DNA of 64,000 nt. Origin: Methanomassiliicoccales archaeon LGM-DZ1 (lineage in GTDB: Archaea > Thermoplasmatota > Thermoplasmata > Methanomassiliicoccales > Methanomethylophilaceae). The stretch covers positions 930,001-994,000 of the forward strand of contig CP115556.1 in NCBI GenBank assembly GCA_030168595.1, written 5' to 3'. This document shows, piece after piece, positions 27,896 to 34,710 of this stretch; within the stretch, counting starts at the first letter, position 1; the number at the start of each line of letters is the position of its first letter. The position numbers and the translations under genes are program-made. The notes under the pieces were generated by a model, which was not told the origin of the DNA, ran no database searches, and worked only from the letters and a program-made list of their open reading frames with translations.

Positions 27896-28672
27896 TCAGC
27901 GCCTGGCCTTGGGCTTCCCGTAGTTCTTGACGGGCTTCCTGTAGATCCAGATGAAGACGATGATCAGGATGATCACTATGAGGGCCATCAGGTACGACTG
28001 CCAGTTGCTGTCGTCCTGATTGTAGTAGAACGTCTTCTCGCCGGAGACGACTGTGGAGCCGTCGGCCGAAGCGACATAGTAGGTGTGCTTGCCGGAGCTC
28101 AGATCGGAGTCGTAGTAGCCGTAGGTGAGAGTCTGGGACTTGCCGGGCGCGATGCTCAGCGATGTGCTGCTGTCCTCGATCATCGTCCCGTCCACATAGA
28201 AGTAGACGTTGGTGCTGATGCTGACAGAGCCGGTGTTCTCCAGGGTCATCGAGAGAGTGATGGGCTCGTGGACCCCGATCCTGACCGAGTCGGTATAGGT
28301 GAGGGTATCATCACCTAGTTTCTCGGTCCAGGTCACGGTAAGGGTGTACTTGCCGGTCGTGGTGGGCGCAGTGACCTTCAGGGTCGCCGACCCGCCGTTG
28401 GACAGATCTCCCGAGCTGGGGCTGACCGCGCTGCTCTGGGTGGTCCCGGAGGAGTTGGTCAGCTTGGCCTCGTACGATATGGCGGACGGGTCGCCGGCAG
28501 ACTCCGTGAAGGAGATCGTGAACTCCAGTTCGCCGCCGGTCTTGGTGTCTGTGTCGTCGGCCGCCGTGACCGAATGGTTGGCGACGCTCTCGGCATCGGA
28601 ATCCGGGCCGCTGAGGACGGCCGCGAATGCCAGGGCGGCCATGACGGCCGCCAATACTGCGATCAACTTCAC
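27896..28672 (-). CDS. Secreted, membrane-anchored surface protein with Ig/CARDB-like domains
   Basis: The 258 residues begin with a clear signal peptide (Lys, then ~18 hydrophobic residues, ending near 'SDAES'). Two beta-rich, Ser/Thr/Gly-rich domains follow, resembling CARDB or Ig-like folds. The protein ends with a ~20-residue membrane helix ('LMALIVIILIIVFIWIYR') and a basic tail, so most of it faces outside. The start is GTG at 28672, overlapping the stop of the giant gene upstream (GTGA), so both are made together. It may be a partner or small relative of that protein. Function unknown. Confidence 0.75.
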   Translation of the reverse strand: MKLIAVLAAVMAALAFAAVLSGPDSDAESVANHSVTAADDTDTKTGGELEFTISFTESAGDPSAISYEAKLTNSSGTTQSSAVSPSSGDLSNGGSATLKVTAPTTTGKYTLTVTWTEKLGDDTLTYTDSVRIGVHEPITLSMTLENTGSVSISTNVYFYVDGTMIEDSSTSLSIAPGKSQTLTYGYYDSDLSSGKHTYYVASADGSTVVSGEKTFYYNQDDSNWQSYLMALIVIILIIVFIWIYRKPVKNYGKPKARR

Positions 28673-31600
28673 TTTCTGCGTGAGAACATCCCCCTCTTGC
28701 TTCCGCTGTAGACCATCATGAAGATGATGATCACAGCGATGACCGTCAGAGCCCAGAAGGTGCTGCTGATACCGGCCTCGCTGTTGTCTGCATCGCCGCC
28801 GCTGACGCTGCCGTCAGTGGTGCTGATGCTTCCGGTCTGGTAGGTCAGGGTCGTCTCGGCGATGTCTCCGGTGACGGTCACACTGGCCGCGTTGGTTGCA
28901 TCGCCCAGGGTGTTGACCAGGGTGATGTAGACAGGAGTGACGGAGTCTCCGGCCACGACGACGCTCGCCGTGTCGCCGGAGGCCAGCACCTTGCTGATGC
29001 CGCCGTACTCGATCACCATCTGCCACCCGTCAGGCAGGCTTGCCGACGGTGTGAGGCTCACGGTCTTAAGGCCCATGCAGGTGTTGGTCACCGTGACCGC
29101 GTACCTGTACGAAGCGCCGGTGTACTGCGACGGCAGGGCGCTGTCGCCGGAGGTGACGATCGTCACCTCGCCGGTGTCGCCGGTGCGTGTGAAGGTGTAG
29201 TCGGAGGTATTGCCGTTCCTGTACTTCTCCAGGCAGATCGCTCCGACAGGCAGGGTGTCGGCCAGGGTCCCGTCGGAACTGTAGACCGCCACCTTCAGGC
29301 TGTCGGTGAACGCACCGACGGAGTCGGCGCTGTAGATGCCCTTGACCTCGGTCTCCGTGCTTCCGTTGGCGGGAACGAGGATGAAGTACGCCTTGTTCAG
29401 GGTGAGGCTGCCGCTTCCGATCAGATAGTACACAACATCGTTGTCGGAGTTGTTGTAGATCTTGATCTTGACAGTGGCTTCTCCGTCTGCGAACTGCGCA
29501 GATGTCACATCGGCAGGGACGGTCCCGGTGTAATCGGTGTTGAACACCTTCGAGTCCGAAGCGTACACGGGGTTGTAGGTGATGCTGCTGTCATCGTCCG
29601 CATCGACAGTGGTCTTGGACACCGAGCTGACCTCGGTGAGCGTCGAAACGGCCTCGATGACGGTATCGCCGGAGTTCCCTGCGTAGACCGAGAAGGCCGC
29701 ATCGTCGCTCTTGGCGATGCCTGCGAACGCGAAGTACAGGGTGTACGAATCTCCGGCCTCGTCCTTGGGCAGCTCGACAGTGTACCTGCCGTCGGACGGG
29801 GACACGAATGCCAGGACAGCGAAGTTCTTCGCGGCCAGGGTACCGGATCCGCTCGCGTAGAACCCTGCGGCGACGACTCCGTCGGCATCGGTGCCGAGGG
29901 ACCCGGTGACTGTCACCGTGTCGTATGTCGTTGTGAGGTCGGCGGTCGTTCCGGAAGCGGAGGAGGAACCATCAACTGCGGCGGTCGCGGCCTTGCTGTT
30001 CAGCACGGCCTTGATAGTGTAAATCTCGTCGTATGACTGCTTGGCGAAGTAGTACCAGACGGTGGTGACGCCGTCGGTTGTGCTCTCCGATCCGGTCCAG
30101 TAATTGTCGGACAGGGTGTAATCGGAGTAGCCGGGCAGGAACGAGAGGTGGGCGGACAGCGAATCCACCGTGACGGTCGCTCCCTGGGCGTACGTGACCT
30201 TCACCGGGACGATATCGACGGCTTCTCCGTCAAGGACTGCCTTGCCGGAGTAGCTGCTGCCATCGTACTCGTAAACGATGTACACGGTCGTGGAGGTGAA
30301 GTACTGCTGAGCATTGCTCTGATCGCTGTCATCACTGATGCTGATGGTGTACTGCCCGGGCATCAGCTCCGGGATGGCCCCGGAAGTGTCGTAGGACACG
30401 GTGTAGGTCCCGTCGCTGTTGGATACCAGCGTGTAGACGTTGGCAGATGTCCTGGTGGACTTCAGCTCGTACTGGACGGCGCTGCTGAGGGAGATCAGGT
30501 TGCCGTCGGAATCGTACAGCGATATAGTTCCGCCGTTAGCGGCCACAGCGTTCACGGTCTGGCTCCCCGTAGAGGACGAGGAGGTGCTGACCGAGAATGT
30601 CAGAGACTGGCTGGAGTTGGACGAGACCTCGGAGAAGGTGTGCGAGTAGTCCTCCGTCATTGTGAACATGCCTGTGTTGCGCAGATCGTCCTTGAGCACC
30701 TTCACGGTGGCATCGGATCCCTGGGGGACCCAGATAACAGCCCTTCCGGTGGAGGAGGAGCTGGTCCCGCAGTTGGTGAGGACGGTGAAGGAGTAATCGG
30801 TGCTGTCGACAGTGACGGTCGCCGAGACCCCCACGTAGGGCAGGTAGTTGTATGACGAGGTGGAGGTCCTGTTGGTGTTGGCGCTGACCGAGAGGGTGAC
30901 GCTGTAGGCAGAGACCAGGCTGATGTCGCAGGTCGCATCGCCGGAGACGGCCAGAGTGCCGTAATAGACCTCGCTGCCGCCGTAGGCGTAGACAGTGTAA
31001 TCTCCGTCGGGCAGGTAGGCGGTGTAGGCGCCGGTGCCTGAAACAGAGGCATAGGTGAACACAGCGCCGTCGCTCTTGATGAAGACGACGGTCGCGTTGA
31101 TCTTCTGGCCGTCGGCCTCGGAGACAGTACCGGTGACGGTGCGGGCATCGTACTCGGTGAGCGCAGGGCTCGACGAGGACGCGCTGAAGACTGCGTAGGC
31201 GATCTTGCCGGCGGACAGCTGGTACGCAGTGTACGTGTTGCCGGTGACCGTCATGGGCAGGTAGGCCGTGGAGCCGTCGGTGCGGCCGGAGAACCCGACC
31301 GCCGACACGACGGCATCGCCGGAGAACCCGGAGACCGTGACCGACTCCGCCGGGTAGGCGGCGATGGTCATGGTCCTGTCGGACCCGCTCGAGGACATGG
31401 TGGTGTTGGATGAGGAGGAGCCGTAGAGGCCGTCGGAGGCGACCGATCCGGCGTAGGTGCCGGCGGTCACGTAAATGACGGCCTTGCCGTCCGCTCCGGT
31501 GGTCCCGGTGTAGGAGATGCCCGAAGTGGTCTCGGTCAGGGTGACCTCGGTGCCGGAGGCGTATCCCTGGGTCAGTCCGTTGGTGACTGTAACGGTGACC

Positions 31601-34600
31601 TTGCCGCCGGTGAGCGCGATCCTAAGATCGGAGCCGTCGCCGATGATGACGGTGGCGGTTCCGACGGTGGTCCCGTTCTCGGAAGTGACGGTCACAGTGT
31701 ACTTGTCGGGCAGGATGCCTGAGGTCAGGCCTCTCAGGTCGAGCGTCCCGCTGCTGACAGGCACGCTGTATGTCTTGCCGCTGGCAGTGCCCTCGAGGAG
31801 GGCGGTGCCGCTGATAGATGACTCTGTGCCGCCGACAGTGATGACTGCGGAGGACGGAGTGACGGCAGTGACGGTCAGGTTCAGGCTCGTCGAAGTGCTG
31901 GAGTCGATGACCGTAGTGGACAGCGCGACGCCGTCCCTTCCGCCGGTCGATCCGGCGTACAGGACGAGGTAGGAGTCGGAGCCGGCCGGGACATGCACGG
32001 TAAAGGTGCCGTCGGAGGCGGTGTAGGCTGTGCTTCCCCTGACATATGTCCCGAGGTTGCTGTCGTAGGTGTAGACGGAGGCCCTGATGCCCTCGACGGC
32101 GCTGCCGGAGGCGGTCACGGTGCCCGTATAGGTCTCGGTCGTGGAGCTCGCATCGTCGGCGGTGTACTCCAGGAGCATGACACTGGACAGGTAGTTGATG
32201 ACCCCGCCGTCGGTCTTCTGCTTGGCGATGGCCTCGTAGGCATCCATCTCAGTCCATCCGGAGGAGGAACTGGTGGCGCTGTCGTCCGCATTGTACATGA
32301 CGTGCCAGTAGGCGATCTTGAATCCGTCGATGCCGGTCAGGGGCTTGACGGTCACGTCGCTGCCGGCGGCCGCAAGCGCGGAGAGCAGGGCGTACGAGTT
32401 GCTGTACCCGGTCGCGTCGATGCCGATGAGGGCGTTCCAGAGGAACGTCTCGTACATGGCCGAGGTGTAGCTCGTGTAGCCATAGTAGGCGTTGTAGCTG
32501 TAGAAGTAGGTCGGGGCATTGTAGTTCCCGGCGGAGTACTGGCCGAAGTAGGCCATGGTGGAGAAGGAGGAGCTGTCGCCGTAGTAGAGGGGCAGCATGC
32601 TCCCGTCGAGCTCGATGTACTGGATCCCGGTCCTGCCCGACGCTGCGCATACGTCATGATAGAGCGCCTGGATCTGGGCCTCGGTGAGGTTGGCCGTGAG
32701 GTAGTGGGAAGCGGCGTAGTACACCGCGTTCTCGGAGGTCAGCGAGTTCAGCTTGATGCCGGAGTGGTCTGAGGAGCTGTTGGCGATGGCCTCGCGGGCG
32801 GCCGAGGGGTCGTCCACGAGATTCTCGAAGATCTCCGCCTTCGTATCGTCGCCGAAGACGCTCTTGATGACGCTGTCGAACCAGGCGGCGTCGTGGTTGA
32901 GGATCATCCTGATGGTCATCACGGCGACCGTGTTGGCCGATGAGCTGCCCAGGTAGATCTGGGACATCGGCACGGTCCCGCCGCCGTTGGAATCGGTGAC
33001 GCTCTTGAAGCCGGCCTCGGCCGCGTAATCGGAGTTGGAGATCCAGGTCACGATGCCTCCGTCGACGTCCTGGGTCGAGTAATAGGACCAGAGGGCGGAC
33101 GACTCGGAATCGTCGGAGGTCTGTATGTCGTAGCTGAGCCCGCCGAAATAGCCGGCCTTCTCGTCGTTGGAGGGCGTGGCCGCATCCGCTGCCAGGACGG
33201 CATTGGGGACGGCGACCAGGAACACCGCGATGAGGACGGTGGCCAGCGGGAAGAACTTCAGGGACTTCCTGGCGCCGGCCTTGAAGCCGTTGCCACGGAG
33301 GGACCTGAAGTATGATTTCAGGTCCACCGCCCTGATGACCTTCACCGAGAGGATGCCGCACCCTGCCGCGAAGGCGGGGCCGGCGAGGACGGCATAGCTG
33401 CTGTCGAACCATCCGACGAAGAACATCGAGAAGATGTACAGCAGGGAGAAGCCGTACAGCCTGGAGGAGGCGTGGGCCCTGTACCTGTAGAGCATCCAGC
33501 ATCCGAGGATGAACGGGAACCAGAGGGTGAGCCAGCCGTAGTACGATGCCATGTCGGAGATCGAGGTCCTGGTCGCATTGTCGGCAAGGTCCTCCATGAG
33601 GGTGCCGCTGTAGACGCTGTTGCCGTGGAATATCGCGTGCGAGAGGTCCCCGTCGAGGAACATGATGACGACGGCGACCGCGACGATGACGACGGCGAAG
33701 ACGGGGATGGTGGCCACCCAGGGCTTCTTGGCAACGCAGGCGAAGGCAGTGGCGTATATTGCCGTGAGCACACCGAGCACGACCGCTCCGGAGGCAACGG
33801 CATCCCACTGGCCGACCGCACCGTACCAGACTGCGGCGCAGATGATGCCGGCCGCGAGGATGATATCGGCGATGGCGACGGCGGGCCACATGTCCCTGCC
33901 GGAGATGCGCTGGACGATCAGCGATATGCCCAGGATGACGGCGATGACGACGAAGATCATCCAGAATCCCGTCCAGGAGAGGACGGTGATCCCGAACATG
34001 ACGGCCGCCAGGACCGTCGGAACGAGGACCTTCCTGTCCTTCAGCACGCCCTTGGGTCCGCTGGGCTGGCCTTCATCGGCGGCCTTGAGGGCGCACAGGA
34101 TGAAGTAGACCATCAGGGACGCGAAGAAGCAGATGAACGCGAACCCGGAGCCGCTCGAGAAGGGAGTGGTCATTATGATGAGGCCGAAGAACGCATAGAA
34201 GAGCGCCGAGACGACACCTACCACACGGTCCTCGCGGTACATCTTCTTGCCGATGCCGTAGATCACGATGCAGGTGAGGGCACCGAGTATGGGCGCCGCC
34301 CAGGCGATGGTCCCGGCTGCCGCGGTGCGGTCCGAGATGCCGAAAGCCGTCACGATCTGCGCTATGCCCGCCATGATGTAATCGTAGGCCGGCCCGTAGG
34401 CGCTCACAGACCCGAACGGATAGTTCAGGGAGGCGACGCTGGACGGGTCGTAGGTGCCCGCCATGATCTCCATGACGATGCGGAGGTTGCTGCTCGCGCT
34501 GCTGCCGCCGGACAGGGCGTAATTGTCGCCGGCGGAGATCCCGTACGCGTAGACGAACCTTACCAGGAAGGCCGCCAGAACGATCACGAACAGGGAAAGC

Positions 34601-34710
34601 GGGAGCCAGTGCTCTTTGAGCCAACCTATGCCGCCTTCGCTCTTGACAGCGGGTGCGGCAGGGGCTTCGCCCTCTTCGGGCGAGGCTTTTCCTTTTCCAA
34701 ATATGCGCAT
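28669..34710 (-). CDS. Giant surface protein with a degenerate STT3/AglB-like membrane domain
   Basis: The product is 2013 residues. Residues ~35-500 hold about 12-13 membrane helices with the oligosaccharyltransferase layout, including 'DPSSVASLNYPFGSVSAYGP' and 'APILGALTCIVIYGIGKK'. The catalytic parts are altered. The first acidic loop reads 'AGDNYALSGG', the second DxD region reads 'TTPFSSGSG', and where WWDYG is expected the closest match is W556-I-S-N-S-D-Y562. Residues ~520-820 resemble the AglB soluble head. About 1100 Ser/Thr/Val/Gly-rich residues follow, with repeated carboxypeptidase-regulatory-like units ('VTGTVSEADGQKI'-type), then a C-terminal helix and basic tail. It is probably not an active glycosyltransferase but a large anchored cell-surface protein. 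An active enzyme with divergent motifs cannot be excluded. Confidence 0.75.
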   Translation of the reverse strand: MRIFGKGKASPEEGEAPAAPAVKSEGGIGWLKEHWLPLSLFVIVLAAFLVRFVYAYGISAGDNYALSGGSSASSNLRIVMEIMAGTYDPSSVASLNYPFGSVSAYGPAYDYIMAGIAQIVTAFGISDRTAAAGTIAWAAPILGALTCIVIYGIGKKMYREDRVVGVVSALFYAFFGLIIMTTPFSSGSGFAFICFFASLMVYFILCALKAADEGQPSGPKGVLKDRKVLVPTVLAAVMFGITVLSWTGFWMIFVVIAVILGISLIVQRISGRDMWPAVAIADIILAAGIICAAVWYGAVGQWDAVASGAVVLGVLTAIYATAFACVAKKPWVATIPVFAVVIVAVAVVIMFLDGDLSHAIFHGNSVYSGTLMEDLADNATRTSISDMASYYGWLTLWFPFILGCWMLYRYRAHASSRLYGFSLLYIFSMFFVGWFDSSYAVLAGPAFAAGCGILSVKVIRAVDLKSYFRSLRGNGFKAGARKSLKFFPLATVLIAVFLVAVPNAVLAADAATPSNDEKAGYFGGLSYDIQTSDDSESSALWSYYSTQDVDGGIVTWISNSDYAAEAGFKSVTDSNGGGTVPMSQIYLGSSSANTVAVMTIRMILNHDAAWFDSVIKSVFGDDTKAEIFENLVDDPSAAREAIANSSSDHSGIKLNSLTSENAVYYAASHYLTANLTEAQIQALYHDVCAASGRTGIQYIELDGSMLPLYYGDSSSFSTMAYFGQYSAGNYNAPTYFYSYNAYYGYTSYTSAMYETFLWNALIGIDATGYSNSYALLSALAAAGSDVTVKPLTGIDGFKIAYWHVMYNADDSATSSSSGWTEMDAYEAIAKQKTDGGVINYLSSVMLLEYTADDASSTTETYTGTVTASGSAVEGIRASVYTYDSNLGTYVRGSTAYTASDGTFTVHVPAGSDSYLVLYAGSTGGRDGVALSTTVIDSSTSTSLNLTVTAVTPSSAVITVGGTESSISGTALLEGTASGKTYSVPVSSGTLDLRGLTSGILPDKYTVTVTSENGTTVGTATVIIGDGSDLRIALTGGKVTVTVTNGLTQGYASGTEVTLTETTSGISYTGTTGADGKAVIYVTAGTYAGSVASDGLYGSSSSNTTMSSSGSDRTMTIAAYPAESVTVSGFSGDAVVSAVGFSGRTDGSTAYLPMTVTGNTYTAYQLSAGKIAYAVFSASSSSPALTEYDARTVTGTVSEADGQKINATVVFIKSDGAVFTYASVSGTGAYTAYLPDGDYTVYAYGGSEVYYGTLAVSGDATCDISLVSAYSVTLSVSANTNRTSTSSYNYLPYVGVSATVTVDSTDYSFTVLTNCGTSSSSTGRAVIWVPQGSDATVKVLKDDLRNTGMFTMTEDYSHTFSEVSSNSSQSLTFSVSTSSSSTGSQTVNAVAANGGTISLYDSDGNLISLSSAVQYELKSTRTSANVYTLVSNSDGTYTVSYDTSGAIPELMPGQYTISISDDSDQSNAQQYFTSTTVYIVYEYDGSSYSGKAVLDGEAVDIVPVKVTYAQGATVTVDSLSAHLSFLPGYSDYTLSDNYWTGSESTTDGVTTVWYYFAKQSYDEIYTIKAVLNSKAATAAVDGSSSASGTTADLTTTYDTVTVTGSLGTDADGVVAAGFYASGSGTLAAKNFAVLAFVSPSDGRYTVELPKDEAGDSYTLYFAFAGIAKSDDAAFSVYAGNSGDTVIEAVSTLTEVSSVSKTTVDADDDSSITYNPVYASDSKVFNTDYTGTVPADVTSAQFADGEATVKIKIYNNSDNDVVYYLIGSGSLTLNKAYFILVPANGSTETEVKGIYSADSVGAFTDSLKVAVYSSDGTLADTLPVGAICLEKYRNGNTSDYTFTRTGDTGEVTIVTSGDSALPSQYTGASYRYAVTVTNTCMGLKTVSLTPSASLPDGWQMVIEYGGISKVLASGDTASVVVAGDSVTPVYITLVNTLGDATNAASVTVTGDIAETTLTYQTGSISTTDGSVSGGDADNSEAGISSTFWALTVIAVIIIFMMVYSGSKRGMFSRRK

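Follow-up and report, generated by a model that had tools for sequence, protein, structure and literature searches.

A conserved, probably inactive oligosaccharyltransferase homologue with a giant beta-rich ectodomain in Methanomethylophilaceae

The genome of Methanomassiliicoccales archaeon LGM-DZ1 encodes a protein with the fold of the oligosaccharyltransferase (OST) STT3/AglB, in which the known catalytic residues are replaced. It is likely an OST pseudoenzyme that has been conserved for a scaffolding role in the envelope or in secretion. AglB counts as the hallmark enzyme of N-glycosylation, and a genome that carries its gene is commonly assumed to have the pathway. Calls made from gene presence alone would be wrong here, because a family of gut methanogens has the gene and its active site appears lost. 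Neither a conserved OST pseudoenzyme nor giant Thermoplasmata AglB turned up in the literature that we searched, whose coverage was incomplete.

Fold and active site of the OST homologue

The gene lies in a stretch of 64,000 nucleotides (contig CP115556.1, positions 930,001 to 994,000), hereafter the window, to which all coordinates refer. The genome is closed, consisting of a single contig of 1,768,094 bases (1.77 Mb), and is 99.7% complete. A preliminary description of the window, made from its letters, had placed a pseudo-OST gene at 28669-34710; the open reading frame of the OST homologue, on the minus strand, has exactly these coordinates. The independently assembled genome of Candidatus Methanomethylophilus sp. 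1R26 (L091), a near-identical strain, has the full-length frame as well, so the frame is not an assembly artefact; the match also places the window genome in Methanomethylophilus or very close to it. Orthologues of the 2013-residue protein occur in 58 of 61 related genomes, including 43 of the 43 high-quality ones. The features discussed below are the following.

28669..34710, minus strand: whole pseudo-OST gene, 2013 aa
33181..34623, minus strand: multi-TM GT-C membrane half, AglB-like (residues 30-510; TIGR04154 match, AfAglB Z 30.7, dN/dS 0.08)
34480..34515, minus strand: equivalent of the first DxD in EL1, LSGGSSASSNLR (residues 66-77), metal-ligand Asp changed to Ser
34144..34170, minus strand: equivalent of the second DxD in EL2, TTPFSSGSG (residues 181-189), both metal ligands gone
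33547..33603, minus strand: EL5 region expected to hold TIxE (residues 370-388), motif and its Glu gone
33397..33399, minus strand: position of the lipid-phosphate Arg (AfAglB Arg426), Ser438 by alignment
33025..33045, minus strand: WISNSDY at the WWDYG position (residues 556-562), by alignment
32131..33105, minus strand: AglB C-terminal globular domain (residues 536-860), including the strongly conserved residues 690-860
28765..32130, minus strand: predicted extracellular tandem beta-sandwich region (residues 861-1982), prealbumin/CarboxypepD_reg-like, from structure prediction and offset alignments
28696..28764, minus strand: C-terminal TM anchor (residues 1983-2005); the basic tail behind it, KRGxFxRRK, is common to the order
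27896..28672, minus strand: partner gene, 258 aa, with a signal-like N terminus, beta domains and a C-terminal TM helix

In what follows, the lost clade comprises the motif-lacking members of Methanomethylophilaceae (family f1), and kept relatives are those that retain the motifs, such as families f2-f6 of the order Methanomassiliicoccales.

The archaeal STT3 model TIGR04154 matches residues 39-512 of the window protein with E 1.2e-23. The score is 83 bits against a curated cut-off of 450, which no genome of the class passes (0 of 121) and which is therefore not diagnostic. PF02516 gives no match to the protein at E <= 10, and a PDB search with its sequence alone retrieved no OST: profiles are required. 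Built from 28 lost-clade relatives, a profile finds Archaeoglobus fulgidus AglB with E 2.7e-22; that of the motif-keeping relatives does so with E 4.5e-30, and the two align with each other over 646 columns (hhalign, probability 100, E 2e-100).

The AlphaFold model of residues 1-880 (mean pLDDT 73.8, pTM 0.63) superposes on AfAglB (PDB 3WAJ) with Z 30.7 over 568 residues and rmsd 5.5, residues 28-880 being aligned. Yeast and human STT3 are matched with Z about 29, and Foldseek retrieves 7e9s with E 1.4e-11. Since these structural matches extend from the membrane part through the globular domain, both have the OST fold, and the window protein is a true STT3/AglB homologue. The STT3/AglB layout proposed earlier for the membrane half is thus borne out by family model, profiles and structure; what the superposition returns is the AglB fold without metal-binding acidic residues or a WWDYG equivalent.

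The closest known system is A. fulgidus AglB-L (PDB 3WAJ, 5GMY and 7E9S; STT3/AglB/PglB, GT66), which has the same GT-C membrane fold and globular domain. It ends at ~870 residues, whereas the window protein continues into a long beta chain and a second anchor. The fold matches of the model also include PIG-U of the GPI transamidase (7wld_U, Z 15.2), where a GT-C fold acts as a structural subunit. PIG-U has no known transferase activity, and non-catalytic GT-C folds are thus already known. However, it belongs to the mannosyltransferase branch and carries no giant ectodomain, while the window protein is an OST homologue that does.

In AfAglB, the metal is held by Asp47, Asp161 and His163, the site is completed by Glu360 of the TIxE motif and by Arg426, and WWDYG forms the Ser/Thr pocket (PMC8342417, PMC3703281). 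Every item of this set is replaced in the window protein. The position of Asp47 in EL1 is occupied by Ser71, and Asp is retained there in 5 of 32 lost-clade members. In EL2, Asp161 and His163 correspond to Ser188 and Phe190; across the lost clade the first is Asp in 0 of 32 members, and none has Asp or His at the second. EL5 reads LMEDLADN, with Asn378 at the Glu360 position, in a part where the local alignment is less certain; no TIxE or SVSE motif is recognisable in the aligned EL5 of the window protein or of the clade as a whole. Ser438 takes the place of Arg426: this residue is Arg in 0 of 31 lost-clade members and Arg or Lys in all other proteins except G041, a member of family f6. Finally, the second Trp of WWDYG is found in 0 of 31 lost-clade members, the window protein reading WISNS.

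Kept members of f2-f6, again excepting G041, have the Asp161 equivalent, the ligand at the His163 position, the Arg and the second Trp all intact, and 38 further named loci give the same picture. The strings TTPFSSGSG and WISNSDY, already singled out in the preliminary description as stand-ins for the canonical motifs, are placed by the alignment at the second DxD and at WWDYG. Judged by these replacements, the window OST is probably catalytically inactive.

The giant ectodomain and the history of the loss

Residues 861-1982 are predicted to form an all-beta chain of sandwich domains, followed by a TM helix (pLDDT 71, pTM 0.54), and offset profile alignments reveal internal repetition. CarboxypepD_reg matches 12 of 29 orthologues (best E 9.5e-11), the window protein itself giving no match; beta domains of the orthologues also match the models fn3_3, EMC7 and NOMO_5th, the last two weakly. 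In structure, single beta domains resemble the S-layer protein SlaB (Z 10.0), pilins (Z about 7-9; BcpA, Z 9.3) and a chain of the BOS complex (Z 8.3). The similarity to prealbumin/CNA-B-like surface rods (pilins, SlaB, NOMO) covers one or two domains only, and, unlike in those rods, the beta chain here is joined to an OST and has an anchor at either end. NOMO and EMC7 are, in eukaryotes, members of the ER membrane insertion machinery; the likeness to them may reflect a common domain fold only.

The partner gene lies directly downstream, its start overlapping the OST stop by 4 bp. A homologue directly follows the OST gene in both the lost and the kept clades, which identifies the small anchored beta protein as an old partner.

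OST matches are present in 119 of 121 Thermoplasmata genomes, usually in an open frame of ~2050-2430 aa, and nearly all of these giant OSTs have canonical motifs. The giant AglB proteins of families f2-f24 are thus like the window protein in frame length throughout the class; they differ from it in keeping WWDYG and TIxE and, for the most part, the DxD motifs. Within the order Methanomassiliicoccales, to which the comparison of the beta chains applies, the likeness extends to the C-terminal region, the anchor and the small downstream partner: aligned by themselves, the C-terminal regions of kept and lost clades are homologous (hhalign E 4e-51), and both clades have the final TM helix and the basic tail. 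The giant beta region is therefore older than the loss of catalysis. Beyond the order, where the comparison is one of frame length, the long OST frames make a still older origin likely. The repeated beta region of ~1100 residues and the C-terminal anchor noted in the preliminary description are indeed present, but they were not added to a dead enzyme.

In the tree, 24 of the 27 members of f1, all motif-lacking, form one clade with SH-aLRT 100 and a stem branch of 1.21 changes per site; the three f1 members with motifs kept fall outside it. By this phylogeny and the alignment, a single loss of the catalytic motifs, on a long branch, accounts for most of Methanomethylophilaceae. The exception in f6, G041 (L042:2347-8694), reads WNGYG for WWDYG and TISL for TISE, has Gly for Arg, and sits on a branch of 1.03 versus about 0.2 for its kin. 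On sequence grounds this is a second, independent degradation of the OST. Because the tree separates G041 from the lost f1 clade, a minimum of two independent losses is implied.

Single copy and the state of N-glycosylation

Searches of the window genome with PF02516, TIGR04154 and the motif-keeping profile A2 gave no second OST. The canonical aglB that might have existed alongside is not found: the window gene is the only OST homologue detected in the genome, and the homologue is single-copy in the relatives as well.

We compared N-X-S/T sequons in the ectodomains with the reversed pattern as control. Forward and reversed counts are 511:506 in the lost clade (32 proteins) and 320:196 in the motif-keeping f2-f6 of the order (12 proteins), a contrast with Mann-Whitney p 7e-5, uncorrected for relatedness; across the class they are 391:161 (26 proteins, partial ectodomains). 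The ectodomain of G041 is still enriched, 24:16, despite its degraded motifs. Sampled secreted proteins of six genomes gave sequon ratios too noisy to bear out a loss on the scale of the genome: of two genomes with intact motifs, G048 showed no enrichment (0.94) and G025 a ratio of 1.71. As sequon enrichment has vanished from the lost-clade ectodomains and no second OST is found, N-glycosylation is likely to have been lost in the lost clade. It had been held that being the sole OST of an N-glycosylating organism would speak against a pseudoenzyme; the gene is the sole copy, but the sequon statistics favour loss of N-glycosylation.

Some glycan synthesis appears to remain, since the window genome has four GT2 genes and three weakly GT-C-like proteins. 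The latter (L250, L251 and L252) are multi-TM proteins that resemble PMT_2 weakly and may be further GT-C transferases that use polyprenyl-phosphate sugars. GT2 counts are 0-7 in complete lost-clade genomes and 6-16 in complete genomes of other families, except G041 (4). A low count was considered as a mark of catalysis loss and rejected: it is confounded with family, and the two genomes of the motif-keeping f1 genus g14 have 4 and 5, within the lost range and not clearly above the dead ones. The low f1 counts fit a published comment that glycosyltransferases tend to be fewer in host-associated than in free-living Methanomassiliicoccales (PMC9723798). Two other candidate marks failed. No member of PF00953 (GlcNAc-1-phosphate transferases) was detected in the 61 genomes of the order, motif-keeping or motif-lacking, and the family is thus uninformative; the flippase family PF01943 occurs patchily, in a pattern that does not follow the loss. 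G036 (f1, 99% complete) has no GT2 at E <= 1e-5 and keeps the pseudo-OST.

Selection, proposed role and alternatives

The window gene differs from that of 1R26 by 40.5 synonymous and 31.5 nonsynonymous changes (dN/dS 0.26), of which 8 and 2 fall in the membrane half (dN/dS 0.08); the comparison covers a single strain pair with few changes. The pseudo-OST is under purifying selection, and these ratios exclude free decay for that pair. The beta region is less well conserved than the membrane half and residues 690-860, in the lost and the kept clade alike.

Since every tested catalytic motif is lost or degraded, the pseudo-OST is probably a surface scaffold and not an enzyme. The AglB fold of the model, devoid of the catalytic residues, supports the earlier suggestion of an enzyme scaffold reused as a surface protein; its surface location and scaffold role we infer from the architecture. 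The ancestor would have been a catalytically active giant AglB of the kind seen in Thermoplasmata, with GT-C membrane half, globular domain, beta-sandwich chain and C-terminal anchor. On the stem of most Methanomethylophilaceae, this protein would have lost its metal site and the Arg that contacts lipid phosphate, as well as the TIxE strap for the acceptor and the WWDYG pocket for the sequon, and N-glycosylation would probably have gone with them. Selection would then have retained the protein for a structural part that was still needed, the dead GT-C half serving as a large membrane base. With both protein ends in the membrane, the beta chain may form a loop or rod that runs along the outer face and back to the membrane, and together with the small anchored partner from the adjacent downstream gene it would act as a scaffold in the envelope or in secretion. 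Candidate roles of such a surface element are envelope stiffness, adhesion and the handling of secreted proteins. The pseudo-OST is a candidate envelope component in archaea whose class includes the cultured Thermoplasmatales, which lack an S-layer (PMC12448462).

Other readings of the same data have to be weighed. The membrane half might be a non-catalytic binder of dolichol-linked glycan or nascent chains, as a chaperone or translocon subunit, with the surface rod secondary. The conserved OST fold, the conservation of the membrane half and residues 690-860 above the beta region, the weak NOMO_5th and EMC7 matches and the BOS-complex likeness all agree with it, but the lipid-phosphate Arg and the acceptor-holding TIxE strap are precisely what was lost, and the NOMO/EMC7 resemblance may be one of domain fold; we regard this binding role as unlikely, though worth keeping in view. 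A divergent but active transferase, also offered in the preliminary description, is improbable and is disfavoured by the joint loss of metal ligands, Arg, TIxE and WWDYG. It would require a rebuilt GT-C site with another donor or acceptor. S185, G187 and W556, which lie close to the former pocket, do not vary among the 28 aligned lost-clade members, a constancy that new chemistry could explain; the FSNGT loop at EL2 is a replacement common to the clade, unlike random drift; and the remaining GT2 and GT-C-like enzymes could make a donor. Yet no conserved acidic residue is seen as a substitute, and sequon enrichment is gone in the lost clade.

That an unrecognised second OST performs N-glycosylation, leaving the window copy as a spare paralogue, is very improbable: a highly divergent OST could evade profile searches, but in a nearly complete, single-contig genome these gave this locus or nothing, and the relatives are single-copy too. 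It is hardly credible that the gene is a functionless relic heading for loss. The accelerated stem of the lost clade and the long G041 branch would agree with decay; against it stand full-length frames wherever the gene is completely covered, in more than 20 diverged members, the low dN/dS and the conserved downstream partner.

The scaffold reading could be extended to the whole class. Besides acting as an enzyme, Thermoplasmata OST may have a second function, in which the doubly anchored beta chain makes it a surface element, structural or translocon-associated. The structural function would then be the indispensable one, because two lineages lost catalysis and kept everything else. We put this forward tentatively, as a possibility short of a probable one. 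Live, half-dead and dead orthologues with one giant architecture constitute a natural experiment on the enzymatic versus the structural role of OST.

A separate active-site variant occurs among the giant OSTs of the class families f11 and f22 (L068, L070, L072, L073, L074, L075, L077 and L081-L084). WWDYG, TIxE and the first Asp are intact in these proteins, and Asn and Leu replace both EL2 metal ligands, for instance in YANYLSFY; the metal may be bound otherwise here, or not at all.
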